DNA from: Corynebacterium amycolatum
Lineage (GTDB): Bacteria > Actinomycetota > Actinomycetes > Mycobacteriales > Mycobacteriaceae
Direction of reading: 5' to 3'
Assembly (NCBI RefSeq): GCF_016889425.1
Contig: NZ_CP069513.1
Coordinates: 1,302,001 to 1,366,000, forward strand
Length of the DNA: 64,000 nucleotides
Of the stretch, positions 18,328 through 39,078 are shown in pieces. Made by a program: the position numbers and the translations under genes. Every line of letters begins with the position of its first letter. Position 1 is the first letter of the stretch. The notes beneath the pieces are model-generated. The model was given only the letters and a program-made list of their open reading frames with translations. It was not told the origin of the DNA and ran no database searches.

Positions 18328-19407
18328 GTGAGTCTTACACTTGGAATCGTCGGTCTGCCCAATGTCGGAAAGTCAACCCTGTTTAACGCCTTGACGCGCA
18401 ACGATGTGCTGGCTGCGAACTACCCATTCGCCACCATCGAGCCGAACGTCGGCGTTGTGGAGCTTCCCGATCCCCGTTTGAATAAGCTCGCCGAGATTTA
18501 CGGCTCCGAGCGTATTCTTCCGGCTACGGTGTCGTTTGTGGACATCGCCGGCATCGTCAAGGGTGCATCGGAGGGCGAAGGCCTGGGTAACAAGTTCCTC
18601 GCCAACATCCGCGAGGCTGACGCTATCTGTCAGGTCGTCCGTGTCTTCAACGATGATGATGTCGTGCATGTCGACGGCAAGGTTGACCCGGCCTCAGACA
18701 TCGGTGTGATTGAAACCGAGCTCATCCTGGCTGATATCCAGACCATTGAGAAGGCGCTGCCGCGGCTGGAAAAGGAAGCCAAGAAGGATAAGGAAAAGGT
18801 CGGCGAGGTTGAAGCCGTTAAACAGGCCCTTGCCGTGTTGGAAGAGGGGCGCACTCTCTTCGCTGCTTCCGATGATGTGAAGCTCTCCGCTCTGCGCGAG
18901 CTGCACTTGCTCACCGCAAAGCCGTTCCTCTACGTCTTCAATGCTGACGAGGAAGTGCTTGCCGACGAGGACCGCCGCGCGGATCTGGCCGCTGCTGTGG
19001 AACCGGCGGACTGTGTATTCCTCGATGCGAAGGCTGAGTCGGACCTGCTGGAGCTGGATGAGGAATCCCGCAATGAGCTGCTGGCCGAAATTGGTCAGAC
19101 TGAGCCGGGCCTGCATTCGCTTGCTCGCGCTGGTTTCCGCACCCTGGGGCTACAGACCTACCTGACCGCTGGCCCGAAGGAGTCTCGCGCCTGGACCATT
19201 CCGAAGGGTGCTACGGCTCCGCAGGCTGCCGGCGTGATTCACACTGATTTTGAGCGCGGTTTCATTAAGGCTGAAATTGTGTCCTTCAACGACTTGGTCG
19301 AGGCCGGTTCGATTGCCGAGGCGAAGGCCAAGGGCAAGGTTCGCCAGGAGGGCAAGGACTACATCATGCACGACGGTGATGTGGTCGAGTTCAAGTTCAA
19401 CGTGTAG
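18328..19407 (+). CDS. ychF: Ribosome-binding ATPase/GTPase of the OBG-HflX-like class
   Basis: About 359 residues. The P-loop GLPNVGKST is at residues 8-16, followed by DIAGIVKGA (G3, with a hydrophobic residue instead of a catalytic Gln, as expected for a HAS-type NTPase), FNADEE (G4) and a C-terminal TGS domain ending VEFKFNV. GTG 18328 gives the usual MSLTLGIVG start; ATG 18319 would add three residues. YchF binds ribosomes and prefers ATP. Its last 20 bases are copied four times downstream and seem to be an integration site; the gene itself is intact. Confidence 0.94.
19384..19403 (+). repeat. att-like core R0 inside the ychF 3' end
   Basis: GTCGAGTTCAAGTTCAACGT, coding for the last residues of YchF. 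The same 17-20 bases recur at 22603, 32728, 35748 and 36968 (two copies with one or two changes), always within a longer repeat that lacks the rest of ychF. This copy is taken as the anchor end of the island. Confidence 0.75.
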
Positions 19408-19410
19408 TGC

Positions 19411-19800
19411 TTAACCTCTGCGATGAACTCTTTGATCCCGGGACGTGATGAGGACTGGGGCTATTGTGCTCCCCCGAACGCTACGGCCCGGGGGCACGAG
19501 GCTGTGTCGCAGGTGCAAGCGAGAGGACCAGGAGCGAAACACAGACCGCTGAGTCGACGCAGTCACGGTAAAGACGGAGCCGTCTAGGCGGTGCTCGAGG
19601 TTGCGCGAGATACGGTGACGCTGGGCGTCGGTAAGCGATGCGCATTCGGCGACATCGATGGAAAGCTGGACTTTGCCGTCCGTCGTGTTGACGCCCTGGC
19701 CGCCCGGAGTCGACGATTTCGCGAAACGCTCCGCGAGATCGGCGGCGATGACCGCACCGTCGGGGATCCCCGGGCCGGGCGCTATGGTCATGTCGTTCAT
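19411..19800 (-). CDS. ArfB-like peptidyl-tRNA hydrolase domain protein with atypical tail
   Basis: The N-terminal 90 residues match the RF-1/ArfB domain, with the catalytic loop STPGGQGVNTTDGKVQL; the GGQ motif hydrolyses peptidyl-tRNA on stalled ribosomes. After VTASTQRS the expected RNR..A..RL helix and lysine-rich tail that enters the mRNA channel are not recognisable, so the C-terminus may be eroded. The stop lies 3 nt from the ychF stop, tail to tail. The frame stays open upstream to about 19985 without a good start; ATG 19800 is chosen. It may be native to the chromosome or brought by the island. Confidence 0.55.
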   Translation of the reverse strand: MNDMTIAPGPGIPDGAVIAADLAERFAKSSTPGGQGVNTTDGKVQLSIDVAECASLTDAQRHRISRNLEHRLDGSVFTVTASTQRSVFRSWSSRLHLRHSLVPPGRSVRGSTIAPVLITSRDQRVHRRG

Positions 19801-19992
19801 GCCGCCCAGCCTAGGTGCCCACAACCCTTTCTCGTCTCGGCGGAAGCGGAGACCGCGTCGCGACGGCCGGGATCCAGCCTCAGTATTATCCTCGTCACCG
19901 GTTGATTCGAACGCTTTTTGCTCCTCCTTCTCCCGTCGGGCTTCGATTTCAGCGGCCTCCGCAGGTGGCAGTGATCGCTGGATCCGCTCGAA

Positions 19993-20343
19993 CTACCGGT
20001 TCCGATCAGCGGTCGAAGGATTTTCGCAGCAGCCGGACCTGCAGCGCCGGTGCCGCCGCCGTAGCCTGACGAGCATCCCCGCCATGACGGCCATCACGAC
20101 GGCGGTCCCGGCACCGATGATCCAGGGATTACCGAGGAGCCCACCGACGCCTGCGAGTGCTCCGCCCGCCGCGATGAACGGCAGGCCGCAGCAGAGCAGC
20201 GACGGAAGCGCGCAGCATGCCAGTAGGAGCAGCCCGGTCACTGCAGCGACGACGGGACCGGCGCGCCATTCGTCGCGGTCCTGATCGGCGCTCATCGTCT
20301 GCTTCTGGATGAGATCTCCCCGATTGCCTGCGTTGCCGTTCAT
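19993..20343 (-). CDS. Cysteine-pair membrane protein of the mercury module (MerT-like)
   Basis: 116 residues with two hydrophobic helices (about 30-48 and 53-92). Cys pairs sit in and after the first (LLACCALPSLLCCGLPF, residues 43-44 and 51-52) and a CxxxCC motif at 101-106 on the basic tail. Its ATG overlaps the merA stop as ATGA, so it is translated with merA. MerT and MerF-type proteins also carry membrane Cys pairs that pass Hg(II) inward to the reductase, so this is probably the mercury importer. I do not recognise the exact family. Confidence 0.65.
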   Translation of the reverse strand: MNGNAGNRGDLIQKQTMSADQDRDEWRAGPVVAAVTGLLLLACCALPSLLCCGLPFIAAGGALAGVGGLLGNPWIIGAGTAVVMAVMAGMLVRLRRRHRRCRSGCCENPSTADRNR

Positions 20344-21764
20344 GCGCAGCACGACAGCAGCGACGGGTCGGTGGTGAAGGCCTTCGCGGCGATCCGGATG
20401 CCCTCGGCCATGGTCAGGTAGGGGGCCCAGGCGTTGGCGACCTCGGCGACGGTCCTGCCGAGTACGTGGACGCCTGCGGCGGCGAGCTCCCCGGCGTCCT
20501 TGGCGACGGCGGTGAGGCCGAGGATCTCGCTCGTATCGGCGTTCACGACGATCTTGATGAACCCGCGGGTGTCGCGGTTGATCACCGCCCGGGGCACATA
20601 CTCCAGGGGCAGCACGCGGCAGTCGCAGCGGATCCCCGCGGCGACGACCTCCTTCTCGGTCATCCCGACCGCGCCGATCGCCGGTCCGGTGAACGTCACC
20701 CGCGGCAGATGGGAGTAGTCGACGGACCGGTCGGCGTCGGCGAACGCGTTCTCGGCGACGAGGGTGCCGTGGTGGGCCGCGACGTAGACGAACTCCGGGT
20801 GCCCGGTCACGTCGCCCGCGGCCCAGATCCGCGGGTTCGACGACTGCAGATGGTCGGAGACGACCACCTCGCCGGAGTCCCCGGTCTTCACCCCGACCGC
20901 ATCGAGGTTCAAGCCGTCGGTGACGGGACGGCGTCCGAGAGCGACGAGCACCTGGTCGGCGCGGAACTCCTGCGAGCCGCCGGACACGTCCGCGGTAACC
21001 ACGACCTGCCCGGTCGCCGCGTCCCGGGACACCCGGGTCGGCACCGCGCGGCGGACCACCCGGATGCCCTCGTCGGCGAACACCTCCTGCAGTGTCCGGG
21101 ACACCTCCGGCTCCTCCTTCGACGCGAGCCGGGACCGCACCAGCACGGTGACCTGGGAGCCGAGGCGGACGAACAGCTGCGTCTGCTCCAGGGCGACGTA
21201 GCCGCCGCCGAGCACCAGCAGCGACTCGGGGACCTCCGTCAGCTCCATCGCCGTGGTCGAGGTCAGGTACCCGGTCTCCTCCAGGCCGTCGATCGGCGGT
21301 GCCCACGGGCGAGAACCAGTCGCGACCAGGTAGTGGTGGGCCTCGATGGTCTCGACGCTTCCGTCGGATCCGGCAACATCGAGAACCGGCGCATCAGGGG
21401 TGCCCACGAACGAGGCGTCGCCGCGGAGGACCTGCCAGCCGTAGGAGTCGGCGACGTCGGCGTACTTCTCGCCGCGCAGCGACTCCACCAACGCTTGCTT
21501 CCCAGCGATCAGCGCGGGCATGTCGACGGGATCCGCCGTCGTAGCGATTCCGGGGAACCGGGTTGCGGCGTCGACCGCGACGTGCCGCGCGCCGGCCGCG
21601 GCAATGAGCGCCTTCGACGGGACGCAGCCCGTGTTCACGCAGGTGCCGCCGAGCGTCCCGCGCTCGATCATCACCACCGACTTCCCGAGCGTGCTGGCGC
21701 GGATCGCAGCGGCGAACGCGCCGCCTCCCGATCCGATGATGGCGAGATCGTACTTCGTAGGCAT
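20340..21764 (-). CDS. merA: Mercuric reductase
   Basis: 474 residues of the flavin disulfide oxidoreductase fold. FAD binding is at IIGSGGGAFAAAI; the redox pair is Cys42/Cys47 in GTCVNTGCVPSK; NADPH binding is near LVLGGGYVALEQ; AAGDVTGHPEFVYVA is the second FAD motif. It ends LLSCCA, the Cys472-Cys473 pair that hands Hg(II) to the active site, which separates MerA from dihydrolipoamide dehydrogenase. It reduces Hg(II) to Hg(0) with NADPH. There is no N-terminal HMA domain. The DNA is clearly richer in GC than the backbone. An alternative start at 21779 adds five residues. Confidence 0.92.
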   Translation of the reverse strand: MPTKYDLAIIGSGGGAFAAAIRASTLGKSVVMIERGTLGGTCVNTGCVPSKALIAAAGARHVAVDAATRFPGIATTADPVDMPALIAGKQALVESLRGEKYADVADSYGWQVLRGDASFVGTPDAPVLDVAGSDGSVETIEAHHYLVATGSRPWAPPIDGLEETGYLTSTTAMELTEVPESLLVLGGGYVALEQTQLFVRLGSQVTVLVRSRLASKEEPEVSRTLQEVFADEGIRVVRRAVPTRVSRDAATGQVVVTADVSGGSQEFRADQVLVALGRRPVTDGLNLDAVGVKTGDSGEVVVSDHLQSSNPRIWAAGDVTGHPEFVYVAAHHGTLVAENAFADADRSVDYSHLPRVTFTGPAIGAVGMTEKEVVAAGIRCDCRVLPLEYVPRAVINRDTRGFIKIVVNADTSEILGLTAVAKDAGELAAAGVHVLGRTVAEVANAWAPYLTMAEGIRIAAKAFTTDPSLLSCCA

Positions 21765-21812
21765 CGCTGCTCCTGTCAACTCTTGGCTTTCTGCTCTGTC
21801 TCAGCCATACTG

Positions 21813-21836
21813 GACCTTCCAGTGCAGGGGAAGGTC
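21813..21836. promoter_or_regulatory. mer operator/promoter
   Basis: A perfect inverted repeat GACCTTCC-N8-GGAAGGTC lies between the divergent merR and merA. On the minus strand TTGACC overlaps it and CAGTAT follows after 20 nt. This over-long -35/-10 spacing is the hallmark of MerR-activated promoters, where the regulator sits between the hexamers and distorts the DNA. Confidence 0.85.
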
Positions 21837-21862
21837 AAGCGCGGCCACGGAGGGAGACAGTA

Positions 21863-22252
21863 ATGTGGATCGGAGAACTCGCCGAGAGGGCGGGCACTAC
21901 CGCGAAGACCCTTCGCTTCTACGAGGAACAGGGCCTTCTGCCCCCGACCGAGCGCACGCCGTCCGGATACCGCGACTACGCGCCCGAGACGGTCGCTCGG
22001 ATCGACTTCATCCACCGCGGCCAGGCCGCGGGCCTCACCCTCGCCCAGATCCGCCAGATCCTCGACATCCGCGACGGCGGCCATGCGCCCTGCGAGCACG
22101 TGCGCGACCTGCTTGACGTGCGCCTCGCTGAGATCGAGCAGCAGATCGCGCAGCTCTCCGTGCTGCGCGACACTATCGCGGACCTTAGCCAGGACGCCGC
22201 GCACCCGGATCCTGAAACGTGCAGCACCGATCAAGTGTGTAGGTACTTGTAG
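21863..22252 (+). CDS. merR: MerR-family mercury-responsive regulator
   Basis: 129 residues. The N-terminal winged helix (ELAERAGTTAKTLRFYEEQGLLPP) is followed by a long dimerisation helix. Cys77, Cys120 and Cys126 could bind the metal; Hg sensors use three Cys with a slightly different spacing, so a related thiophilic metal is possible. It is divergent from merA with the MerR-type operator between them, so it represses without metal and activates with it. Confidence 0.85.
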   Translation: MWIGELAERAGTTAKTLRFYEEQGLLPPTERTPSGYRDYAPETVARIDFIHRGQAAGLTLAQIRQILDIRDGGHAPCEHVRDLLDVRLAEIEQQIAQLSVLRDTIADLSQDAAHPDPETCSTDQVCRYL

Positions 22253-22295
22253 ACGGCGGGACTCAATGACTCAAACGCTACAACCCCGATATGCG

Positions 22296-22544
22296 CTAGC
22301 GCAGGTCGATGCCGCCGGTGCCCACCTCGATGATTTTGGTGGTGGCCGCGATAGCACACAGCAGCGGCATCGGGGCGGAGGCCTGCAGCGCGAAGTGGTG
22401 GACTCGGAAGGACGCGTTGTTCACGCCGATTTCGTCCGCAGCCTGGGTGATCTCCAGACGAGTCTTGGCGATCTTTTCCGCAGATGGCCCGCACTAGCTG
22501 CCGAAGGCGTAATGCCCGAAGCTTAAGAAGCCGAACGCTTTCAT
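22296..22544 (-). pseudogene. 5' fragment of a luciferase-like flavin monooxygenase gene
   Basis: It starts MKAFGFLSFGHYAFGS behind a good AAAGGAG site, hits an in-frame TAG at codon 17 (22494-22496), then continues in the same frame through QAADEIGVNNASFRVHHF and AIAATTKIIEVGTG, typical of LLM-class oxidoreductases. It stops at about 80 codons; full members are around 330. It lies just upstream of repeat R1, so it is probably a relic cut by an island rearrangement. Confidence 0.75.
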
Positions 22545-22570
22545 TGGATAACACTCCTTTTGATGGTGTT

Positions 22571-22626
22571 AACGAGAGGGAGTAACTTTGCAACGACATA
22601 CCGTCGAGTTCAAGTTCAACGTTTAA
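22571..22626 (+). repeat. att-like repeat R1 (type A)
   Basis: AACGAGA, a stretch containing GTAACTTTGCAACGACAT, then the ychF 3' end (GTCGAGTTCAAGTTCAACGT at 22603-22622) and TAA. It would encode VTLQRHTVEFKFNV and stop, recreating the YchF C-terminus. Nearly identical to R3. Confidence 0.75.
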
Positions 22627-22658
22627 GCGCCGCGTCTGACTTATAGCGAAGGTGTTCT

Positions 22659-22946
22659 ATGAGCATGATCGAGCTGAACGGCACCTTGATCTGCAAAGAC
22701 CACAGTGATGTTTCAATCGTTGAACGGTTCCTTCCAAAACACGTTGAGCTCTCTCGTGATGAACCCGGGTGTCTGCGCTTCGAGGTCACTCAATCCGACG
22801 ACCCGCTCGTATGGAATGTATCAGAACAATTCACTGATCAAGCATCGTTCGATTCGCACCAAGCGCGGGTTAAAGCGAGCGAGTGGGGTCAGGCAACAGC
22901 GCATATTCAACGTGACTACACCATCACGGGGCCCAGGGGAGGGTGA
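22659..22946 (+). CDS. Antibiotic biosynthesis monooxygenase (ABM) domain protein
   Basis: 95 residues with the small ferredoxin-like ABM fold, of the type found in cofactor-free quinol monooxygenases; HVELSRDEPGCLRFEVTQS is the typical central strand-turn. The start is ATG 22659 with GAAGGTG before it. It is the first gene after R1 and precedes the recombinase relic. The substrate is unknown. Confidence 0.72.
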   Translation: MSMIELNGTLICKDHSDVSIVERFLPKHVELSRDEPGCLRFEVTQSDDPLVWNVSEQFTDQASFDSHQARVKASEWGQATAHIQRDYTITGPRGG

Positions 22947-22965
22947 AATCGTTGACTACCGCTAG

Positions 22966-23240
22966 CAAGCTTCCGCCAGTGTACCCGAGCGTAAAGGCGC
23001 TAGGCAGTCACGCGCCCAACAGCAGCGTGCTGAGCAAGGGCGCTGGTGTTCCGACGGTGTACGTCCTATTGGCTACAGCTCAACAGGCGAGATCATCCCT
23101 GCTGAGGCGGAGGCTGTACTTGGTATCTATCGTGCTATCGAACGCGGTAATTCCATGCGCGATATCGCCAGCGTGCAGTGCATTGCTGCTTCAATTGGCC
23201 CTTCTTGCGTGCTCTCTTCTGTCCCAGCCACTTTATTGAC
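22966..23240 (+). pseudogene. Relic of a large serine recombinase
   Basis: Read in the frame of position 23041, the DNA encodes VPERKGARQSRAQQQRAEQG, then RWCSDGVRPIGYSSTGEI and IPAEAEAVLGIYRAIERGNS, which is the central recombinase domain of large serine integrases/Ccr-type enzymes. A TAG at 22963 precedes it. The catalytic serine domain and the C-terminal half are missing. It is the only mobility gene trace in the island and lies next to repeat R1. Confidence 0.7.
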
Positions 23241-23324
23241 ACGTAGATTGCACTATGTACTAGGCAGCCATTTCATTGACACGTTAATTAAACAGTGAAG
23301 TGGCCAGCCATTCGATTGGCACGT
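23226..23324. repeat. Three direct repeats of 19 bp at exact 40-bp period
   Basis: AGCCACTTTATTGACACGT (23226), AGCCATTTCATTGACACGT (23266) and AGCCATTCGATTGGCACGT (23306). Spaced terminal repeats containing TGGCCAGCC-like words are known from IS21-family ends, so this is probably an insertion-sequence end remnant. No istA/istB genes are present. Confidence 0.55.
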
Positions 23325-23339
23325 TTACTGCGCAATAGA

Positions 23340-23681
23340 TTGACACCAACGCCGTGTCCTTTACTCGGGAGACACCCCCGGTGACGGTGGCCAGCACAAA
23401 GACGACGGTGAAGCCGAGAATGAACAACCCGGCCGCACCCGCTACCGCCCACTGGCGTTTGGTGACCACCGCGCCCCCTCGGCGTCGTAGTCGACCTCCC
23501 CGCCGACCACACTGGCCAGATACGACATATATCCGGGTACCAGGGGTACGACGCACGGGGAGGCGAACGAGATCAGACCTGCAGCTGCTGCAGCCAGGAT
23601 GCCGATCATCAGTGGCCCGGTGGCCGCGGCGTCGGCGAACTGCTGGCCGATCGCCAACTGCGCAATCACATCAACGGTCAT
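23340..23681 (-). pseudogene. Truncated, frameshifted ccdA-type thiol transporter
   Basis: It begins MTVDVIAQLA and shows the CcdA hallmark GLISFASPCVVPLVPGYMSYL, with the Cys that carries electrons through the membrane. After about 70 codons the frame shifts; the next helix (AVAGAAGLFILGFTVVFVL) is in another frame, and the gene ends at the IS-like repeats. The ATG overlaps the tlpA stop (ATGA). It would have supplied reductant to the TlpA product outside the membrane. Confidence 0.75.
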
Positions 23682-24293
23682 GATGCTGGTGCCTCCTCGG
23701 CCAGCGGCAGAGCGACATCAAGGATGTCATCGGCGGTGACCTCCCTCAGGAACACCGCGGCCGGGCGGTGGCTTCGGTCCAGGACAATGGTGGTCGGGAT
23801 GACCGAGGTCGGCACCTCCCAGGGCCGCAGCGATACGAAACGGCGGGTCGTAGATCGAGGGATAGGTCACCGCGTTGTCGAGTTTGAAGTCCTGGGCGAT
23901 GGTCTGGTTGTAGTCACGGACGTTGATGCCCAGCACCGTGCCACCGAGGGGGTCGAGAGTCTCTTGGACAAGCTGCAGGTCATCGACTTCCGTCCGGCAC
24001 GGTGCACACCACTAGCCCCAAGCGTTGAGGACGACGACCTCGCCTTCAAAATCAGACAGGCTGATCTCCTCACCTTCCTCCATCAACGACGGGCAGGAGA
24101 AGCCCGGCAGCGGCGCACATTCCTCCTCTGCGTAGATAATCTCGGTTTGGCCTCCTGGTGAGTGGAACTGGAAGGTGCCCCCCCCGACGGCGACGGCGTT
24201 TCGGATGCCGTCGCCTGAGGAACAGGCCACCAGGGTCACGGCGGTGAGCACCGCGGCAACCGCGATGGCGGCTCTGCGGGGTGTGCTCGGCAT
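23678..24293 (-). pseudogene. TlpA-family lipoprotein thiol-disulfide reductase, broken
   Basis: A lipoprotein signal (lipobox LVAC) leads into a thioredoxin fold. The active site WCAPC is directly preceded by an in-frame TAG (24012-24014) at a position where relatives often have Gln, and a second lesion near 23815 shifts the frame before the TSVIPTTIVLD strand. The remaining sequence is clearly TlpA-like. Corynebacterial copper loci carry such a gene next to the multicopper oxidase. Probably inactive. Confidence 0.78.
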
Positions 24294-24443
24294 GGATTAG
24301 ATCTCCATATTCCGGGGCGGTGGGGAAGAAGACGGTGTTCTGGTTGTCCCGGAAGACCACAACACCGAGGAAGGTCATCGTGCTGCCCGGTGGGTGGCCT
24401 GCAGCGACTCTGCCCACCTCGGCACTCAACCCTGCTGTGGGGG

Positions 24444-25925
24444 TTACTCGTAGCGAAGCGAGCTGAGCATCCCGGTTTCCATGTGATAGGCGTTATGGCA
24501 GTGAAATGCCCACTCACCGGGGTTGTCAGCGATCAGGTCGGCGATCATGGTTTCACCGTGGCGGAGAAGGACGGTGTCCTTGCGTAGCCCGCCGCTGCCG
24601 GGCAGCGCCCACGTGTGGCCGTGGATGTGCATGGGATGGGGCATCATGGTCCTGTTGCGCATGACCATCCGCAGGCGCTGGCCCTCCTGCACGGTCGCGG
24701 AGGACGATTGGCCGTCGGTGAGAATGCTCCATTCATACGGCATCATCTGCCCGCCCAGGTCGATGCTGACTTCTCGGTCTGGTGTGCCCTCGGGCAGGAG
24801 TGCACGGTCTGCTGGCTTCAGGGAGGACAGAAGCAGTCCGGTGGATGACAACTCGGGGAAGTCGACATCGGGGCGGGGGGCCTGGCCGCCGGCGGTGCGG
24901 ATGACGGCGAAGGCGCGGTCGTCCTTACCCACCGCCAAAGCCGTGAGCGGGAAGATGCCGTCGCCGAGGATGACCTCGACGTCGACACGCTCGCCCATCG
25001 ACAGGTAGATCGATTCGGTCTCCCGGGGTTGGACAGGGAAGCCGTCGGTGTGGGTGACGGTCATGCGGTGACCACCGAGGGCCACCTTGAAGATGGTGTC
25101 ACCGCCGGAGTTGATAAACCGCAGGCGGGCCTTGTCGCCCGGGCGAGCCTCGAAGGTCCGGTGAGCACGGGGGATACGTCCGTTGATGAGGTAGTGCGGA
25201 TACATCACATCGCCGGCATCCCCGTCCAGTACCCGGTCCGGGGTGCCGTGCATCATATGGCCGTGACCTCCCATCCCCTTCTTCCCGTTATGGTCGTCCG
25301 AACCCATTCCGGTGAGCTTGTCGAGCTCATCGTCGGGAGTGCCCTGAATGCCATCGACCCAGTCGTCGAGCACGATGGTCCACTCGACGTCCTGGTCCTC
25401 AGCGTCTTGCGGGTCACGGACGATCAGTGGGGCGTGGAGGCCGCGATCAAGCTGCAGGCCGGAGTGGGAATGGTAGAAGTAGCTGCCACCGTGGGGGACT
25501 TCAAAAACATAGGAGAAAGACTCGCCAGGTTCAATGGGGTCCTGGGTCATGCCGGGCACACCGTCGGCTGCGTTGTGGAGTGCGATGCCATGCCAGTGGA
25601 TGGAGGTGCTCTCAGGCAGTTCATTGGTGATATCGACCTGGAGGACGTCGCCGGCGGTGGCCTCAATGGCCGCATCCCCGGTGTCAGAGACGTATCCCCA
25701 CGTCTTGGCTTCGATACCGCCGATATCCAGAGAGAGGGGCCGGGCGGTCAGTGTCCGGCGCACCGTCGGCTCACCGAGCGCAGTGGGGGTGGGAGTGGGG
25801 TGAAGGGAGGAACCTGGTGCCGAGGCAGCGGGTCCAGGATCGCTGGTGCAGGCGGCCACGGCCCCGGTGCCGGCGAGGACGAGCCCGCCGAGCAGAAACT
25901 GTCGTCGGGAAAACGCGTTCGTCAT
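24444..25925 (-). CDS. copO: Multicopper oxidase of the copper module
   Basis: 493 residues, intact. A twin-arginine signal (SRRQFLLGG) with lipobox AAC indicates folded export and a lipid anchor. All four copper-ligand clusters are present: SIHWHG, FYHSHS, HPMHIHGH and HCHNAYHMETGM, the last carrying the type 1 Cys, His and axial Met. A Met/His-rich loop (GKKGMGGHGHMMHG) may take up Cu(I). It probably oxidises Cu(I) outside the membrane, like CopO of C. glutamicum. The symbol rests on the shared gene order. Confidence 0.9.
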   Translation of the reverse strand: MTNAFSRRQFLLGGLVLAGTGAVAACTSDPGPAASAPGSSLHPTPTPTALGEPTVRRTLTARPLSLDIGGIEAKTWGYVSDTGDAAIEATAGDVLQVDITNELPESTSIHWHGIALHNAADGVPGMTQDPIEPGESFSYVFEVPHGGSYFYHSHSGLQLDRGLHAPLIVRDPQDAEDQDVEWTIVLDDWVDGIQGTPDDELDKLTGMGSDDHNGKKGMGGHGHMMHGTPDRVLDGDAGDVMYPHYLINGRIPRAHRTFEARPGDKARLRFINSGGDTIFKVALGGHRMTVTHTDGFPVQPRETESIYLSMGERVDVEVILGDGIFPLTALAVGKDDRAFAVIRTAGGQAPRPDVDFPELSSTGLLLSSLKPADRALLPEGTPDREVSIDLGGQMMPYEWSILTDGQSSSATVQEGQRLRMVMRNRTMMPHPMHIHGHTWALPGSGGLRKDTVLLRHGETMIADLIADNPGEWAFHCHNAYHMETGMLSSLRYE

Positions 25926-25995
25926 GATTTAACCTTCCTGGTGTAAGAATTCAGTGACACGGGAGACAGGCGCAGGTGAGGACCCTGCTGAGCTA

Positions 25996-26571: not shown

Positions 26572-26675
26572 GTCAATCTCCTTGGATCGTGGGTAGGACC
26601 GTGAGAAGACACCGCCTCAAGGTCGATGCCATACCTTTATCTAGCACGGGTGCCTGACGGACTAGAAATCAAAAA

Positions 26676-26917: not shown

Positions 26918-26975
26918 CCCGCCGGGCACTGAGCGAGGATGGTATTCCCCCCTGGCCGGAGCGATACTGGGGTCT

Positions 26976-28823: not shown

Positions 28824-28869
28824 CCACACCCTGCCCCGCGTGAGGGCCGTGCCCTCCACTCCTTGAAAA

Positions 28870-28888
28870 TATACCCCCCGGGGGTATA
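28870..28888. promoter_or_regulatory. CsoR-type copper operator candidate
   Basis: TATACCCCCCGGGGGTATA, a G/C-tract palindrome flanked by TAT/ATA as in Cu(I)-sensing CsoR operators, 50 nt before the HMA-protein gene and upstream of copB. No csoR gene is in the window, so a repressor encoded elsewhere would be needed. Confidence 0.65.
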
Positions 28889-28937
28889 CGCTAGAGAGCG
28901 GAATTGCCACACCCCACCGAACCGAAGGAGCCTTCCC

Positions 28938-29264: not shown

Positions 29265-29316
29265 TCGGTTTTACCCATCATCTCGACCCCGACCGGGTTG
29301 AGCGGAAAGGAACGTC

Positions 29317-31513
29317 ATGAGCACTCTCCACCATTCCGGCGATCACCATGGTGATCACCCCGCTCCGGAAACAGACCACACCCACCACCCGGATCATGCC
29401 AGCCACGAACACCACGCAGACGCCGACACCCACGGCCAGGCGATGCCCCACGATCACCCGCACTCCGCCATGGACGAAGACCACCACGTTCATGGTCACG
29501 GCGAACACGCCGGACACAGCACCGCAATGTTTCGGGACCGCTTCTGGTGGTCGCTGATTCTGTCCATTCCCGTCGTTATTTTCAGCCCCATGGTCGCCCA
29601 GCTGCTCGGCTACCACCTCCCGGCATTCCCCGGATCCACCTGGATCCCCCCGGTGCTGGGCACGATCATCTTCGTCTACGGCGGAACGCCTTTCCTCAAG
29701 GGCGGATGGAACGAACTGAAATCCCGCCAACCCGGGATGATGCTCCTGATCGCCATGGCCATCACCGTGGCGTTTGTCGCCTCCTGGGTCACCACTCTGG
29801 GGCTGGGCGGTTTTGACCTGGACTTCTGGTGGGAGCTGGCCCTGCTGGTGACCATCATGCTGCTGGGCCACTGGCTGGAGATGCGTGCTCTCGGGGCTGC
29901 GTCCTCCGCGCTTGACGCGCTGGCTGCCCTGCTGCCGGATGAGGCCGAGAAAGTCATCGACGGGACCACCCGCACCGTGGCCATCTCCGAGCTGGTCGTC
30001 GACGACGTCGTGCTGGTGAGGGCCGGTGCCCGGGTGCCGGCCGACGGAACCATCATCGACGGAGCCGCCGAATTCGATGAGGCGATGATCACCGGCGAAT
30101 CCCGTCCCGTCTTCCGCGACACCGGTGACAAGGTGGTCGCCGGTACCGTGGCTACCGACAACACCGTCCGCATCCGGGTGGAGGCTACCGGCGGGGACAC
30201 CGCCCTGGCCGGGATCCAACGCATGGTTGCCGACGCCCAAGAGTCCTCCTCCCGGGCCCAGGCCCTGGCGGATAGGGCGGCAGCGTTGTTGTTCTGGTTC
30301 GCGCTGATCTCCGCTCTGATCACCGCGGTGGTGTGGACCATCATCGGCAGCCCGGACGATGCCGTGGTGCGCACGGTCACGGTGCTGGTCATCGCCTGCC
30401 CGCACGCCCTGGGCCTGGCGATTCCGCTGGTCATTGCGATCTCCAGCGAGCGGGCCGCGAAATCCGGGGTGCTCATCAAGGACCGGATGGCGCTCGAGCG
30501 GATGCGCACCATCGACGTGGTGCTCTTCGACAAAACCGGCACCCTGACCGAGGGTGCGCACGCGGTCACCGGTGTCGCAGCAGCTGTCGGCGTCACCGAG
30601 GGCGAGCTGCTGGCCCTGGCTTCCGCCGCGGAGGCCGACAGCGAGCACCCCGTGGCCCGCGCCATCGTGGCGGCCGCGGCCGCCCATCCCGAGGCCTCCC
30701 GTCGGCAAATGCGTGCAACTGGTTTCAGCGCCGCCTCCGGCCGGGGGGGTCCGGGCCACTGTCGATGGCGCTGAGATCCTCGTGGGCGGGCCGAACATGC
30801 TGCGCGAGTTCAACCTCACCACCCCGGCCGAGCTCACCGACACCACCAGCGCCTGGACCGGGCGTGGGGCCGGTGTGCTCCATATTGTCCGTGACGGTCA
30901 GATTATCGGTGCGGTGGCCGTCGAGGACAAGATCCGCCCCGAATCCCGAGCTGCCGTGAAAGCCCTGCAGGACCGCGGGGTGAAGGTCGCGATGATCACC
31001 GGTGACGCGCAGCAGGTGGCTCAGGCGGTTGGCCAGGACCTGGGGATCGATGAGGTCTTCGCCGAGGTCCTGCCCCAGGACAAAGACACCAAGGTCATGC
31101 AGCTGCAGGACCGGGGTTTGAGCGTGGCCATGGTCGGTGACGGTGTCAATGACGCCCCCGCTCTGACCCGCGCGGAGGTCGGTATCGCCATCGGTGCCGG
31201 CACGGATGTGGCCATGGAATCTGCCGGGGTGGTCCTAGCCAGTGATGACCCGCGGGCAGTGCTGTCGATGATTGAGCTGTCCCAGGCCAGCTACCGCAAG
31301 ATGATCCAGAACCTGGTCTGGGCCTCTGGCTACAACATCCTCGCCGTGCCGCTGGCCGCCGGAGTGCTCGCCTCGATCGGGTTCGTGCTGTCCCCGGCCG
31401 TGGGCGCGATCTTGATGTCTGCCTCGACCATAGTGGTGGCCCTGAACGCCCAGCTGTTGCGCCGGATTGATCTGGACCCGGCCCACCTGGCTCCCACCAG
31501 TCCGAAGGAGTAA
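29317..31513 (+). pseudogene. copB: Copper-transporting P1B ATPase, frameshifted at G7
   Basis: A His-rich N-terminus of about 60 residues precedes the membrane domain. The ion site ACPHALGLAI (CPH) marks the CopB branch; DKTGTLTEG carries the phosphorylated Asp; TGES and GDGVNDAPAL are present. A run of seven G at 30743-30749 breaks the frame inside the nucleotide-binding domain; with six G the protein is continuous at 731 residues (AASGRGVRATVDG across the join). As written, the product would stop after about 485 residues, before the hinge. Probably an exporter of copper; current activity is doubtful. Confidence 0.85.
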
Positions 31514-31591
31514 CACACCACGCCTACTCCGAAATCCACCGCCGTCCACTGATCCATCACTTCTCTCCACTGACCCTGAACGGGCTTCACC

Positions 31592-32280
31592 ATAAAGCGC
31601 ACCCTTGTTCTTTCCGCTCTCGCCGTAGCCTCCACCCTGGCGCTGGCCGCCTGCGGTGAGGCCACCGACTCAGGCAACACCGACGCCACCACCTCGGCCA
31701 CCAGCACTGCGACGACTACCGCTGAGACGACCGAGACCACCAGGGCGGCGACTGAGGAGGACGGGGAGATTTCCGCCGATCACAACGACGCGGACATCAT
31801 GTTTGCCCAGATGATGATCCCCCGTCACAAGCAGGCCGTGGAAATGGGTGAGATGCTCCTGGCCAAGGAGGGCATCCCCGCCCAGGTCGTGGAGTTTGCC
31901 CAGGGGGTTATTGACGCCCAGGGACCGGAGATTGACCGGATGAACGCCATGCTCGAGGCCTGGGGACAGCAGCCGGTCACCGACTCTGGGGGGGCATGGG
32001 GACCATGGATGAGATAGGTGGAATGGATCACGGCTAGATGGGTGGCATGAGCGGGATGATGAGCCAGGAGGACATGACAGCCCTTGAGGAAGCCCAGGGC
32101 ACCGGCGCCGCCCGCCTTTACCTGGAGCAGATGACCGCCCACCACGAAGGTGCGGTCGACATGGCCCGTGACGAGGTTGCTGACGGCCAGAATTCCCATG
32201 CAATCACCCTGGCCGAACAAATTATCAACGACCAGGAGGCCGAGATCGCCCAGATGCAGCAAATGCTCACTGACCTATGA
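31592..32280 (+). pseudogene. DUF305 copper-associated lipoprotein, broken
   Basis: A lipoprotein signal ending LALAAC and a Thr/Ser linker are followed by the ferritin-like DUF305 domain in two halves: DADIMFAQMMIPRHKQAVEMGEM, then YLEQMTAHHEGAVDMARDE. The expected start codon reads ATA (31592) instead of ATG, a run of seven G (31988-31994) shifts the frame by one, and TAG at 32035 interrupts the second half (DHG-TAG-MGGMSG). The Met/His-rich middle suggests copper binding. At least three lesions make it a pseudogene. Confidence 0.8.
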
Positions 32281-32448
32281 CAGGTCCCCGTCTTTTTCTG
32301 ATCCCGAGGACAGGAATCTGAAAAAGAGGGATAACCGTGACGATTGCCACCTGCTGCGGGCGATGGGTCGTTGTCACCGCAGCAGGTGCACCGGGGTGGA
32401 TGTTTCTACTCCTTCTGGTCGCACCACTGAGGAAAGGGGAAAGCCCCT

Positions 32449-32550
32449 GTGTCCAGACCCTTGGAGGACTACGCATTATTGTCCGATACTCACACGGCCG
32501 CCCTGGTCTGCCGGCAGGGCAGCATTAATGTTGGGGTGTCCCCCGAGTAG
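32449..32550 (+). pseudogene. N-terminal fragment of a GH15 glycosidase gene
   Basis: GTG start with GAGG upstream, then SRPLEDYALLSDTHTAALVC and RQGSI, the N-terminus of GH15 trehalase/glucoamylase-like proteins. After 27 codons it runs into non-homologous sequence and a stop. Cut by an insertion or rearrangement at about 32530. Confidence 0.65.
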
Positions 32551-32560
32551 TGGACACGGC
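32531..32560. mobile_element. Possible insertion-sequence end remnant
   Basis: GGGGTGTCCCCCGAGTAGTG followed by GACAC resembles IS3-family terminal repeats with GTCC/GGAC words, exactly where the GH15 frame breaks. No transposase is present. Confidence 0.35.
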
Positions 32561-32711
32561 GTTGGTGTCAGTTAGGCAACGAGGCCTACGGTAGCAGCCG
32601 TCGTCGCGGTCTCGAAGGTTGTACTGCGATCCTAGCTATCGCTTTTTACTTCTTGTATCTACTCAATCTCTAGCAGCTTCTACTGTATGTCCATAGGGTA
32701 AAGGGTATTTA

Positions 32712-32748
32712 GCAACGACACGTCGTGGAGTTCAAGTTCAACGTTTAA
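32712..32748 (+). repeat. att-like repeat R2 (type B)
   Basis: GCAACGACACGTCGTG followed by GAGTTCAAGTTCAACGTTTAA. The arm holds the inverted repeat ACGAC-AC-GTCGT directly beside the ychF core. Same arm as R4. Confidence 0.75.
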
Positions 32749-33112
32749 CGCGGGCAGCCGCCGCCGGATTCTCGGTGGCGATTCCGGCCCGAACCTCGGG
32801 GACATTCTCGCGCTTCCTCATCTACGTGAGCTCCGCGATTCCGGCCAGCTCACCGCTGCCCCCATCTTCGATAGTTTGAGCGAGCTCGACCACGACCATC
32901 TGATCTGGTGCACTGGTTTCCGTCCGGCCCTCGGCCCATTCCGCCATCTCATGCGCGGCCGCGAAACCGCGGTGAAGAATCTCCATCTAGTTGGTTACGG
33001 CAACTGGACCGGCGACGGCTCGGCAACCCTGATGGGTGTCGGGCCCTTTGCCAAATACACTGCCCAGGTAGTCGCGGGTCGTGTCGATGAAGCTCGGCAT
33101 CAAAAGTTTTGA
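32747..33112 (+). pseudogene. C-terminal fragment of an ArsO-like flavin monooxygenase
   Basis: An open frame with no start begins inside repeat R2 and encodes GGDSGPNLGDILALPHLREL, WCTGFRPALGPFRHL and LVGYGNWTGDGSATLMGVG, the C-terminal part of FAD/NAD(P) monooxygenases of the ArsO or Trk-associated type. The N-terminal two thirds, with the FAD site, are missing. The cut coincides with the repeat, so the junction was probably made by recombination there. Confidence 0.65.
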
Positions 33113-33190
33113 GGCGACGCTTGGTCCCTGAGCAGCTCGATCCTTCCAAGATCCGCACTGGAGAGTCAGCGCGCTGGGCGAAGGTATGTC

Positions 33191-35083
33191 TCAGCGTTTC
33201 GCTCGTGCAGCCCGCAGGCCGTTCAAGATCACGATGACTTCGGCGACTTCGTGTACCAACACGACGGCGGCCAGGCCCAGCACACCGCTGATCGCCAGTG
33301 GCATCAACACGATGATGATGGCCAGAGACAGCACGATGTTTTGGTTGATGATCCTGCTGCCTCGGCGGGCGTGCTGCAGCGCCTGCGGGATCAGTCGGAG
33401 GTCGTGGCCAGTGAAGGCGACATCAGCGGACTCGATCGCGGCGTCAGAGCCGGTTGCTCCCATCGCAATGCCCACCGTTGCGCCCGCCAGTGCCGGCGCG
33501 TCGTTGATGCCGTCGCCGATCATCGCCGTCGGCGTCTTGGAGGAGAGTTCGGCGACGATGCTTGCCTTGTCCTCCGGTCGCAGCTCGGCGCGCACGTCGT
33601 CGATTCCGGCGATTTCAGCCAGCGCCCGGGCGGTGCGAGTGTTATCGCCGGTGAGCATGCTCACTTCCACGGCGTTGTCGTGCAGGGACTGCACGGCATC
33701 GGGCACCTCGGGCCGCAACTCGTCGCGCACCCCGATTGCCCCGGCGATAGCGTCATCGACGGTGACTAGTACGCAGGTCTGGCCTTCGGACTCCATGCGC
33801 TCAACGTCCGCCTTCAGTGGCCCGGCGTCGATCCATCGGGGGCTGCCCACCAGCACCCGTCGGCCTTCGACGGTGCCGCCGATGCCATGACCGGCTTCCT
33901 CGCTGATATCCAAGGCGGTGGGCGCTTCGGGCTCCGCTGCCACAATCGCCGCGGCGAGGGGGTGCGTCGATTGCTGCTCAACCGCCGCCGCGAAGGAAAG
34001 CACCTGCGCCCGATCGAATCCTTCTGCCGGGACCACTCCGGTAACCTCGGGCTGGTTGCGGGTAAGGGTTCCGGTCTTGTCCACCGCTAGGTGACGGATG
34101 CTGCCGAGTCGCTCGAACGCTGCGCCGGACTTGATGACTACTCCGAACTGGCTGGCCGCGCCGATCGCGGCCACGACCGTCAGCGGCACGGAGATTGCCA
34201 GCGCGCACGGCGACGCTGCGACCAGGACCACCAGCGCACGGGTGATCCACGTCTCGGGGTCGCCCAGCAGCGAGCCGATCACGCCGACCAGCACCGCCAG
34301 GATCATCACCCCGGGCACTAGGGGTTGGGCAATTCGGTCGGCGATCCGGGCGCGGTCACCCTTCTCCGCCTGCGCCTGCTCGACGAGGTCGACGAGTGTG
34401 GTCAGCGAGTTGTCCGTTCCAGCTGCGGTCGTCTCGACCTCCAGCACACCGGTGGAGTTGATCGCTCCCGCGGGTACCTCGTCGCCGGGCGCAACCTCCT
34501 CCGGAATGGATTCTCCGGTGATCGCTGAGGTGTCAAGGCTGGAGCGTCCGGACCGAATGATGCCGTCCGTGGCGATCCGCTCCCCGGGGCGTACGACCAT
34601 TAGCTCGCCAACCTCAAGGTCCTTCGCAGCGACCTCGGCCGTCGTACCGTCGCGCAGCACGGTCGCGGTTTGCGGTACCAGCTTCAACAGTGCCCGCAGT
34701 CCGCCCTGGGCCCGGTCCATCGCCTTGTCTTCCAGTGCCTCGGCGATCGAGTACAGGAACGCTAGCGCCGCGGCCTCTCCGACGTAACCGAGGATTACCG
34801 CGCCGACCGCGCTAATCGTCATCAGCAAACCAATGCCGAGCTTGCGCTTCGTGGCAAGGTTCCGGATAGCGCCGGGCGCGAACGTATACGCCCCTAGCAG
34901 CAGGCCGACCCAGAACAGTACTGTCGCGGGTGTCTCTAGCCCGGACCAGCCCAGCGCCAGACCTATGCAGAGGGCTACGCCGGAGAAGATTGGCAGTAGC
35001 AACTCGGGGTCCTTCCACCATGGCCGATCGAGATCTTCGATCTCCGTGGCTGGTTCGTGTTCACATCCACATGCTGAACTCAT
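33191..35083 (-). CDS. Cd/Zn/Pb-type P1B ATPase
   Basis: 630 residues. A Cys-containing N-terminus (MSSACGCEHEP) leads into eight membrane helices. The ion site ASPCALAIS (SPC) defines the divalent-cation P1B-2 branch; DKTGTLTRN, TGES and GDGINDAPAL complete the pump cycle. The C-terminal helix VLVHEVAEVIVILNGLR is typical of CadA/ZntA. It exports Cd(II), Pb(II) or Zn(II). ATG 35083 overlaps the end of the cmtR-like gene (ATGA), so the sensor and pump form one operon. Confidence 0.9.
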   Translation of the reverse strand: MSSACGCEHEPATEIEDLDRPWWKDPELLLPIFSGVALCIGLALGWSGLETPATVLFWVGLLLGAYTFAPGAIRNLATKRKLGIGLLMTISAVGAVILGYVGEAAALAFLYSIAEALEDKAMDRAQGGLRALLKLVPQTATVLRDGTTAEVAAKDLEVGELMVVRPGERIATDGIIRSGRSSLDTSAITGESIPEEVAPGDEVPAGAINSTGVLEVETTAAGTDNSLTTLVDLVEQAQAEKGDRARIADRIAQPLVPGVMILAVLVGVIGSLLGDPETWITRALVVLVAASPCALAISVPLTVVAAIGAASQFGVVIKSGAAFERLGSIRHLAVDKTGTLTRNQPEVTGVVPAEGFDRAQVLSFAAAVEQQSTHPLAAAIVAAEPEAPTALDISEEAGHGIGGTVEGRRVLVGSPRWIDAGPLKADVERMESEGQTCVLVTVDDAIAGAIGVRDELRPEVPDAVQSLHDNAVEVSMLTGDNTRTARALAEIAGIDDVRAELRPEDKASIVAELSSKTPTAMIGDGINDAPALAGATVGIAMGATGSDAAIESADVAFTGHDLRLIPQALQHARRGSRIINQNIVLSLAIIIVLMPLAISGVLGLAAVVLVHEVAEVIVILNGLRAARAKR

Positions 35084-35439
35084 GCGTCCGCTCCTTTTCC
35101 GTCGCAGCCAGGCACCGAGCACTCCGGGTCGATGCACGGGGCGTTTTCGTCGACAGCCAACGTCGCGTTCACTAGCGCGTTGAGCGCTGTCGCGAGGTGC
35201 GGATCGGCGATTTCGTAGCGTGTCTTGCGGCCCTCCGGCTCGGCGACGACGATGCCGCAGTCACGCAAGCAGGTCAGGTGGTTCGAGACGTTCGAGCGGG
35301 TCAGGTCCAGGTCGCGCGAAAGCACGGCTGGGTAGCTCGGGCCGTCGAGTAGGGTCAGCAGGATTCTGGAGCGCGTCGGATCCGCCATGGCCCGGCCGAG
35401 CCGGTTCATGACGTCGAGGCGTGAAGCAATAGTCAGCAT
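35080..35439 (-). CDS. cmtR: CmtR-type Cd/Pb-sensing ArsR-family repressor
   Basis: 119 residues, winged helix with SNVSNHLTCLRDCGIV. Cys57, Cys61 and Cys102 fall at the same positions as the metal ligands of M. tuberculosis CmtR, so it should release DNA on binding Cd(II) or Pb(II). Two more Cys (107, 112) are near the C-terminus. The -10 hexamer TATAGT ends 7 nt before the ATG, so the transcript is probably nearly leaderless. Co-transcribed with the ATPase. Confidence 0.88.
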   Translation of the reverse strand: MLTIASRLDVMNRLGRAMADPTRSRILLTLLDGPSYPAVLSRDLDLTRSNVSNHLTCLRDCGIVVAEPEGRKTRYEIADPHLATALNALVNATLAVDENAPCIDPECSVPGCDGKGADA

Positions 35440-35443
35440 GGGG

Positions 35444-35474
35444 TGAACTATACAGCAATTACTGAACTATTCAA
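35444..35474 (-). promoter_or_regulatory. cmtR promoter with TGAACTAT repeats
   Basis: On the minus strand, TTGAAT-N16-TATAGT ends 7 nt before the cmtR ATG. Two TGAACTAT copies (35444 and 35463), 19 bp apart, cover it and are candidates for CmtR binding. Confidence 0.6.
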
Positions 35475-35521
35475 CACGCGCTGAACTGACATTGAAGCGA
35501 AGAGCTTGCGGCCTGCAGGAA

Positions 35522-35668
35522 TTATTCGATGGGATAGCCGGTAACTGGGCCTTCGTGATTCGGCTGCCAACCCAACGCGGGAGCGACGTGGGCGGCGAGG
35601 TTCTCCAGAATCTTCACGTTGACGTCCACGCCATCCCGCAAAACCTTTACGTGTTTCCACGCGCCCAT
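35522..35668 (-). CDS. Short unrecognised frame or gene fragment beside R3
   Basis: 48 codons from ATG 35668 (MGAWKHVKVLRDGVDVNV...) with a protein-like composition ending GPVTGYPIE. I recognise no family and the ribosome site is weak. Like the LLM fragment at R1, it is a minus-strand frame starting just inside a type A repeat, so it may be a truncated gene. Confidence 0.3.
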   Translation of the reverse strand: MGAWKHVKVLRDGVDVNVKILENLAAHVAPALGWQPNHEGPVTGYPIE

Positions 35669-35716
35669 ATGTTCTCTGTGTACTGACGTAATTACTGTTT
35701 TCTGATTGTTGCAGGC

Positions 35717-35771
35717 TAACGAGAAAGTAACTTTGCAACTACATACCGTCGAGTTTAAGTTCAACATCTAG
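35717..35771 (+). repeat. att-like repeat R3 (type A)
   Basis: TAACGAGAAAGTAACTTTGC followed by AACTACATACCGTC and the ychF core with changes (GAGTTTAAGTTCAACATCTAG). It matches R1 along its full length, apart from a few substitutions and a small length difference. Confidence 0.72.
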
Positions 35772-36045
35772 GTCCGTGACAAGTCGGTAGCACGTTTTTC
35801 GATTCGACGCTTTGGGGCACTACCGGGGTTCCCGGTGGTCTTCTTGGGTTGTGCGGTTCAGATTTCCTAACCTAAAACTCGTTTGAGCGTGCTATCCGCT
35901 GGTGTGCCGCCGATGCTGCTGCTCATAAGGGGCGGGCGCTCCATGAATACAAGGCGTAGGTCGCGCCTGAGGTCAGGCCGAGGCGGATGCCGTGGCTGAC
36001 TGGGGCGTAGTCCGAGCATCCGCACCCCGGCCTTTGGTGTATGCG
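35772..36045. other. Gene-free stretch after R3
   Basis: No gene seen. It holds a short ACCGGG-GTT-CCCGGT hairpin near 35822 and CCTAACCTAA at 35866-35875, a DtxR half-site with a poor second half. Confidence 0.4.
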
Positions 36046-36576
36046 CTAGCCCCGCTCGGGGTAGCGCACGAGGAGATCGTTGCCGATGACTGCGCCGTCG
36101 TTGAGCGTTGCCTCGCTCACCTTCGCCCCGGCTGCACCCAGGCCCATAATGTGGCCAACCTCGTCACCGTGGGCGATGAGGTGGTCGGCGATGATACGCC
36201 GGTGGCACCGCCACCACACTGCCTCGGAGCACATGATTACGGTGGGGGTTTCGGCGGCGTTTGCCCGTAGCTGCGAGAGCGCGTCCGAGAACTCCTCGCC
36301 CAGCGCATGGTCGGCGTAATTGTGGAAACTGCGGTTACGCCAGTTGCCGTTAACCTCAAACGGCACCGAGTGTGACACGTTGCGCCGCCCGGTGAGGCCC
36401 TCGCTTCTGCTGTAGGTGATGCCACATGTGGGAAGGTGTTCGCCGTTGAACCACGGGTACTTCCTGGACCCGGGCAGCTTGCGCACATCCACGATGGATG
36501 CCACACCGGCAGCCTTAATCATTTTAGCGAAGTCCTCAAACTCGAGGTTGGAGTGGCCCACGGTGAAAATGCGCAT
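36046..36576 (-). CDS. DUF488 family protein
   Basis: 176 residues beginning IFTVGHSNLEFEDFAKMIKA and containing DVRKLPGSRKYPWFNGEHL and the Cys motif VIMCSEAVWWRCHRRIIADHL, all typical of DUF488. Function unknown; some relatives sit near DNA-repair or stress genes. It is the only intact gene between R3 and R4. Confidence 0.82.
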   Translation of the reverse strand: MRIFTVGHSNLEFEDFAKMIKAAGVASIVDVRKLPGSRKYPWFNGEHLPTCGITYSRSEGLTGRRNVSHSVPFEVNGNWRNRSFHNYADHALGEEFSDALSQLRANAAETPTVIMCSEAVWWRCHRRIIADHLIAHGDEVGHIMGLGAAGAKVSEATLNDGAVIGNDLLVRYPERG

Positions 36577-36893
36577 GTCGCCAATGCTACGCGCCCAGCG
36601 GGTACCCCCACATCGGCGTCCAGATATCGTGCATCGGTAGGTGGTCGGACCGGTAGAACGGGGGGGGGTAGGCAGGACGTTTAATGCATTCGCGCCCGCC
36701 TTTGCGCGGCATCAATCCTATTCACGGCCGAGCGTTCCGCACGGACCGTTCGTTTAAGTTTCAACGGGTCGCTTGGGGCGACAGCGGAAGCCTGAATTAA
36801 CCGTATATGGGGCGAATCCCATGTATGTCTTGTTAAAGGACGCTGCTGCACGAGGAACGGGGGCTGAGGTTACCTGGTGTGCACTCTAGCTTT
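36577..36893. other. Gene-free stretch upstream of the DUF488 gene
   Basis: No convincing frame. It contains a run of nine G at 36660-36668. Confidence 0.45.
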
Positions 36894-36921
36894 GCCACAC
36901 ATAGCCGGGTGTGGTGGTTTT
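36894..36921 (+). terminator. Hairpin with T run before R4
   Basis: CCACAC / GTGTGG stem with an 8-nt loop followed by TGGTTTTTAG on the plus strand. No plus-strand gene leads into it, so it may be a leftover. Confidence 0.4.
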
Positions 36922-36932
36922 TAGCTGCTATT

Positions 36933-36990
36933 CACGAATGAGAAGGTGACTTTGCAACGACACGTCGTGGAGTTCAAGTTTAACGTTGAG
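36933..36990 (+). repeat. att-like repeat R4 (type B)
   Basis: AAGGTGACTTTGCAACGACA then CGTCGTGGAGTTCAAGTTTAACGTTGAG. The arm and the ACGAC-AC-GTCGT inverted repeat are the same as in R2; the GTGACTTTGCAACGACA part is shared with R1 and R3. The stop codon has become GAG. Taken as the distal end of the stacked island. Confidence 0.72.
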
Positions 36991-39068: not shown

Positions 39069-39078
39069 CGAGGGCCGG

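Follow-up and report, generated by a model that had tools for sequence, protein, structure and literature searches.

A putative array of metal-resistance cassettes at the 3' end of ychF in Corynebacterium amycolatum, with a large serine recombinase as its likely engine

We analysed a stretch of 64,000 nucleotides from Corynebacterium amycolatum (assembly GCF_016889425.1, contig NZ_CP069513.1, positions 1,302,001 to 1,366,000 of the forward strand; hereafter the window), in which metal-resistance genes follow the gene ychF and are divided by copies of its 3' end. The ychF gene, recognized by its translation, lies at 18328..19407 on the plus strand, and its last seven codons are the putative target of the elements described here. 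The 20-base end of ychF, in the following called the core, was found five times, always on the plus strand, at 19384, 22603, 32725, 35748 and 36967. A preliminary description of the window had already listed the four copies downstream of ychF, two of them with slightly late starts (32728 and 36968 instead of 32725 and 36967). Chance repeats could be ruled out: 100 shuffles of the window gave no copy with up to three mismatches, and no further core with up to two mismatches was present in the whole single-contig genome of 2,474,943 bases. The cores of this genome occur solely in the neighbourhood of ychF. A tRNA or tmRNA gene as anchor was rejected, as ARAGORN detected none in the window.

All four downstream cores were preceded by the arm TTTGCAACGACATACC or a variant of it, and ychF itself had no arm, as had been noted before. 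The end of ychF (R0, 19384..19403, plus strand) resembles an attL junction and may serve again as target; its crossover dinucleotide would be the GT at 19384-19385. The other repeats, all on the plus strand, each consist of the right arm of the preceding element and a core: R1 (22573..22622, core 22603-22622; attR-like), R2 (32695..32744, core 32725-32744), R3 (35718..35767, core 35748-35767) and R4 (36937..36986, core 36967-36986), the last visible right end. Read in the frame of ychF, R1 and R2 gave VEFKFNV followed by a stop codon, as the preliminary description had it for R1 to R3; R3 gave VEFKFNI-stop, and in R4 no stop followed directly.

The repeats delimit four elements on the plus strand. 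Element E1 (19384..22604, GT to GT) is a mercury cassette. It contains a release-factor-like fragment (19411..19824, minus; RF-1 domain under the Pfam cut-off), a small membrane-like protein without Pfam match for which position alone suggests mercury transport (19993..20295, minus), a merA-like mercuric reductase (20340..21779, minus) with Pyr_redox_2 and dimerisation domains that is about 96% identical to plasmid stretches annotated merA, and a merR-like regulator (21863..22252, plus; MerR_1, MerR-DNA-bind). Element E2 (22603..32726) is a copper cassette. It opens with an antibiotic-biosynthesis-monooxygenase-domain protein (22659..22946, plus; PF03992) and a remnant, not intact, of a large serine recombinase gene (22975..23295, plus), 91% identical to residues 51-157 of a stretch in locus L073. 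The copper block proper (23341..32570, no strand assigned) encodes a multicopper oxidase (24444..25925, minus), a CueP-like copper-binding protein (25996..26571, minus; PF21172), a response regulator (26976..27698, plus), part of a sensor histidine kinase (28035..28823, plus), a heavy-metal-associated (HMA) domain protein (28863..29264, plus), a copper P-type ATPase over two overlapping frames (29317..31513, plus), for which L073 has one open frame of 759 aa, and part of a DUF305 protein (32038..32280, plus), with Pfam support throughout. Element E3 (32725..35749) holds a P-type ATPase (33191..35137, minus) and an ArsR-type regulator (35080..35439, minus), both recognized by Pfam, and presumably acts on Cd, Pb or Zn. 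Element E4 (35748..36968) encodes a DUF488 protein (36046..36576, minus; PF04343).

The earlier assignment of separate modules for Hg, Cu, Cd/Pb and DUF488 was borne out by Pfam and by plasmid matches annotated merA and copper-translocating P-type ATPase, with the Cd/Pb substrate as the presumptive part. The GC content was 0.668, 0.634, 0.636 and 0.599 in E1 to E4 compared with 0.584 and 0.580 in the flanks; the modules are thus richer in GC, as described before. Gene fragments do abut the repeats, one of them being the recombinase remnant. Beyond R4, genes that look like a SulP-type transporter occupy 36990-40323. The gene at 40324 comes next, and in genome G090 (L151) its homologue stands some 670 bases behind ychF. 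The segment 36990-40323 is possibly an older insertion that has lost its right end.

To place the array we used one genome per species for 242 Corynebacterium genomes, 239 of which contained a ychF relative at E ≤ 1e-60. The arm-plus-core pattern (up to three mismatches) was detected in 49 genomes. One or more copies of the core alone (up to one mismatch) were present in 186 genomes, two or more in 81 and three or more in 45, with a maximum of eight; these tallies were made by hand from the census table, and a copy need not be an attachment site. The copies lay on a single strand in each genome, except in the many-contig genomes G154, G155, G210 and G223, where both strands carried them, and the reversed pattern as control gave one match, in G021. 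Twenty arm-negative genomes were picked by hand, not at random, about half of them nearest relatives. A further core in the direction of ychF was found in seven, and none in the fetched stretch of the other 13, one of which ended 597 bases after ychF; sense matches outnumbered antisense ones 14 to 1. Some of the sampled relatives thus showed no further core behind ychF, and among relatives the number, order and content of the modules all differ. The checks suggested in the preliminary description therefore favoured its reading, as did the restriction of the repeats to ychF in this genome.

To compare the modules themselves, we clustered 97 core-to-core segments from the window and 40 loci. Several cassette types recurred with their boundaries at the core. 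The mercury cluster had 21 members, of which 18 measured 3192-3199 bp between cores and had near-identical ends, the other three being longer. In the loci with a comparable ychF, some of them from the same genome, the mercury cassette was 89.5-97.8% identical to that of the window over the summed full length; the corresponding identity of ychF was 70.8-74.2% in 16 of these loci, with two closer relatives at 83.9 and 92.1%. When nameless neighbours were counted by their first letters and unnamed arms as 'other', the mercury cassette had 15 distinct pairs of left and right neighbours and the Cd class 14. At L071:14879-14938 a mercury right arm runs directly into the start of a second mercury cassette, and such a tandem junction would equal a circle junction. 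We concluded from these sequence comparisons that the segments behave as cassettes that appear to have been shuffled among genomes. An alternative is that the island is old and fixed, its repeats being relics and its differences the result of deletion and homologous recombination in a shared ancestral array. The window genome indeed has no intact recombinase, and remnants and decayed cores do exist. Such an origin does not account for near-identical cassettes in altered order and beside other neighbours in species whose ychF is only 71-74% identical, nor for a recombinase that is 98-99% identical in Actinomycetales (see below), and we regard it as very unlikely.

The exchange point was mapped from the letters of the core. 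Identical 80-base contexts were counted once. Of 164 junctions 90 were classified, and 74 without a named right class were dropped. Core positions 3 and 6 showed no association with the left neighbour (p 0.23 and 0.35) and a strong one with the right cassette (0 of 500 shuffles). The GT at positions 1-2 was conserved, G being kept in 91 and T in 89 of 92 internal cores. As the letters to the right of GT follow the cassette and not the left neighbour, the crossover would take place at GT, and each cassette would then bring its own ending of ychF. The nearest relatives of the window by ychF, G082 (99.7%) and G235 (97.2%; deposited as C. vitaeruminis 1285_CVIT), offered a comparison with and without an element. 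Both read ychF-GT-element-GT-mercury cassette, with elements of 16,564 and 14,781 bp, whereas the window reads ychF-GT-mercury cassette. The flanks were 88-99% identical to the window, and the letters beside GT matched those predicted for a crossover at GT. The statistical mapping and the two comparisons both point to a crossover at a dinucleotide shared between unlike half-sites.

The cores also keep a coding pattern. We took 92 arm-anchored cores, chosen without regard to their letters and with six sites per codon position. Minority letters numbered 29, 24 and 134 at codon positions 1, 2 and 3, and 29, 23 and 81 among the 42 distinct cores; these are plain counts without a formal test, and the copies are not independent of each other. 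The reading was VEFKFNV-stop in 59 cores and VEFKFNVT-stop in eight. Since cores inside an array no longer end a gene, the third-position pattern fits the idea that each internal repeat was once the end of ychF. Each element appears to bring its own, mostly synonymous last codons of ychF, mostly with a stop.

A candidate enzyme was found at the junction. At their left end the copper elements, that of the window included, contain a serine recombinase gene that has decayed, and the domain and active-site results reported here concern recombinase-bearing relatives, the window copy being a remnant. The window genome had no match to the Recombinase domain (PF07508) and no intact recombinase of the ychF-element kind. 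The full-length protein has 503 aa, and its gene begins some 45 bases into the element, counted from a junction where ychF ends as VEFRFNVT-stop. The two members scanned contained the domains Resolvase (PF00239) and Recombinase (PF07508), both above the cut-off, and Ser12 of the recombinase aligned with the TP901-1 integrase. Relatives (E up to 1e-10) were present in 42 of the 242 genomes. With at least 48% identity, fragments included, they occurred in 34 genomes, in 28 of them on the contig of ychF and, by hand tally, in 25 of these 28 at most 10 kb downstream of it; in the remaining six of the 34 the position relative to ychF cannot be judged. The other eight genomes had relatives of 43% or less, which in G213, G216 and G227 lay within about 10 kb of ychF in the opposite orientation. 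The left end of the recombinase element was seen in 19 distinct contexts, 15 of them at ychF; a context was counted by its end sequence, whether or not the gene that follows had been looked at. At least two cores were present in 24 of the 34 recombinase-bearing genomes vs 57 of the 208 others (Fisher p 2e-6, phylogeny not corrected). We take as the likely engine of the cassettes a large serine recombinase whose gene stands, in some elements, immediately inside the junction with ychF.

Other features of the recombinase element were observed. Its genes encode an SSB, an HTH_17 protein (L119 copies) whose PHROG matches are excisionase-like, and a conserved protein of 447 aa for which neither Pfam nor PHROG gave a match. 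The latter and the SSB (L124:18528-19868 and L119:16558-16983) hint at a replication or transfer module. Left ends away from ychF lie at L118:9956, L099:5942, L108:6000 and L126:487, and in C. striatum ATCC 6940 the site is about 110 bases behind an ORF that by eye resembles a zeta-toxin kinase. A known plasmid or phage enzyme was considered and rejected, as all 127 plasmid and 944 phage matching records had less than 60% identity; no relative was found in viral_contigs. In L129 the left end of a recombinase element sits at a GT within the inverted-repeat sequence of the copper block, as if at a pseudo-site.

Similar cassettes occur beyond the genus. A recombinase 98-99% identical was found behind ychF in Varibaculum cambriense (two), Arcanobacterium urinimassiliense, Actinotignum timonense and A. 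schaalii. Further cassettes follow ychF in Gleimia europaea (a complete mercury cassette, 97.0%, besides a left end of erm type), Pseudoglutamicibacter cumminsii (an erm-type end with sequence of the Cd and copper types) and Helcobacillus massiliensis (an erm-type end and Cd- and DUF488-type sequence). Gleimia and Varibaculum belong to Actinomycetales, Pseudoglutamicibacter and Helcobacillus to Micrococcales, and Corynebacterium to Mycobacteriales. The erm-type cargo was recognized in the element of G082, whose last gene begins like an rRNA adenine dimethylase gene of G002 (Pfam RrnaAD on the L098 copy), which we take to be erm(X). On its left, an erm(X)-like cassette of 2.3 kb retains the beginning of a recombinase gene (two pieces, 54-74% identity), and its right arm is nearly that of the recombinase element; it thus appears to have arisen by deletion from a related recombinase element.

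Plasmids of Rothia terrae, Micrococcus luteus and C. maris also carry mercury and copper blocks, with an identity of about 96%, and one further record reaches 99% or more; more than 8 kb of the copper block is shared with plasmids of Rothia terrae and C. marinum. In the window this block is bounded by 38-nt inverted repeats, 92% complementary, at 23341-23378 and 32533-32570. These repeats would suit a transfer of the modules by insertion sequences or transposons with the ychF-end repeats as passive passengers, as would plasmid matches that stop short of the cassette ends, judged by megablast limits only. Passengers would not be expected to give several cassette types, in unrelated genomes, an edge at the core, nor to retain the reading frame of ychF in its letters, and we attach next to no weight to this explanation.

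Taken together, we consider it very probable that the array consists of cassettes inserted site-specifically at the 3' end of ychF by a large serine recombinase acting at GT, and stacked there. Genome comparison supports this with a recombinase gene at the ychF junction, near-identical cassette ends, shuffling and an apparent exchange point at GT. The recombinase, encoded directly behind the junction in some elements, would join a circular element to ychF at the GT inside its seventh-last codon. As the right half-site of the element copies that of the chromosome, every insertion would rebuild the target at ychF, and elements would stack with the newest adjoining the gene. Cassettes without an intact recombinase, among them all four of the window, could be served by a recombinase supplied in trans or be carried with a neighbouring recombinase element. 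As is characteristic of cis-mobilizable elements, att-flanked elements without an integrase of their own do stand beside a related, presumably mobile, integrative element in G082 and G235. A compatible variant is accretion, in which recombinase-less cassettes move only within composites reaching from the left end of a recombinase element to a distal right end. It has been proposed for islands of Dehalococcoides (PMC3146451), and in G082, G235 and G187 the recombinase element adjoins ychF, upstream of the mercury cassette; the many different neighbour pairs of the mercury and Cd cassettes do not fit it, and we rate its chance somewhat below even. Of these points, renewal of the target, the direction in which the array grows and action in trans are inferences.

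Several observations weigh against site-specific insertion and stacking. Excision, a circle or integration was not observed, so movement is deduced from sequence, and the exact attP junction of the recombinase element, searched as one sequence, was absent from viral_contigs and from 168 loci. The crossover mapping covered only 90 of 164 junctions. Because the arm defined its left class, an association with the left side before GT is built in. A weaker one was also seen at core positions 9-12, 16 and 18 (p 0.000 to 0.034), perhaps because the recombinase element stands behind ychF in all classified rows. The comparison with G082 and G235 involves relatives that are not isogenic, their left flanks sharing 92.7 and 88.0% identity with the window, and homologous recombination between long flanks could also swap whole arrays. 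Of the arm-anchored cores, 25 of 92 read neither VEFKFNV-stop nor VEFKFNVT-stop. Fewer than two cores were present in ten of the 34 recombinase-positive genomes. G149, G115 and G079 are exceptions to the position within 10 kb downstream of ychF, the array of G149 lying about 1.1 Mb away, and four of the 19 left-end contexts are sites other than ychF; G149 and C. striatum ATCC 6940 are among the genomes with a recombinase element at such a site.

Elements of the staphylococcal cassette chromosome (SCC) are known to stack, and the preliminary description had seen the logic of SCC here with ychF as anchor. This holds as an analogy, the more so as a recombinase was found, but not as membership. 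Three recombinases scored 63-76 bits against a CcrB cut-off of 900; that of L098 reached 74 bits with CcrB (cut-off 900), 32 with CcrC (900) and 28 with CcrA (700), its best model being XisF with 82 (375). The site of SCC and of the Enterococcus cassette chromosome (ECC), the 3' end of rlmH, is not the one used, the anchor being ychF. SCC and ECC (rlmH, CcrAB; PMC6222049) share with the ychF arrays a large serine recombinase, the 3' region of a conserved protein gene and variable cargo. They differ in anchor and phylum, and the recombinase of the ychF elements stays far below the Ccr cut-offs.

The ssrA islands of Dehalococcoides lie in tandem behind a conserved single-copy gene, are split by 20-bp copies of its 3' end, and in some cases carry at their left edge a serine recombinase gene (DsiB), others having no recombinase; DsiB reportedly belongs to a module of six genes that includes another, small recombinase (PMC3146451). 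The tandem layout, the 20-bp end copies and the left-edge recombinase in some elements are thus common to both systems. Their anchor is the tmRNA gene ssrA and not a protein gene, whereas the ychF arrays have one recombinase gene at the junction, elements down to about 1.2 kb and hosts in three orders; membership was rejected, the window having ychF as anchor and no tmRNA by ARAGORN. Serine integrases of actinobacteriophages (for example those of Microbacterium phages UtzChips and Percival) were among the best phage matches, with about 42% identity over 70-72% of the protein, but unlike the ychF-element recombinase they are phage-borne.

Integrons, too, gather small cassettes of cargo, all pointing the same way, into an array that varies and takes up new members preferentially at one end, with the help of a tyrosine recombinase and folded attC sites. 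The ychF arrays resemble them in their small, equally oriented cassettes and variable array, and differ in the serine recombinase and the protein-coding target. The preliminary description knew of no ychF-anchored element, and we likewise found none described in the open-licence PMC literature, searched by titles and abstract starts. As far as that literature shows, the kind of system is known from SCC, ECC and ssrA islands, and the anchor, the recombinase, the protein-coding memory and the host range are new.

In many Corynebacterium species, and in two further orders, mercury, copper, cadmium-type and erm(X)-like cassettes would meet at a single locus. Its address is predictable, a recombinase family would serve it, and the crossover could be placed within two bases. 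The sequence behind ychF is a simple screening target, and the recombinase a new candidate enzyme. At close to even odds, the end of ychF may be a docking platform common to actinobacteria, where an integron-like pool of small, mostly one-function cassettes is served in trans by a helper serine recombinase across species and orders and kept open-ended through synonymous copies of the last ychF codons, one in every cassette, that renew the insertion site. Selection on the last codons of a host gene would here shape the attachment site of a mobile element.

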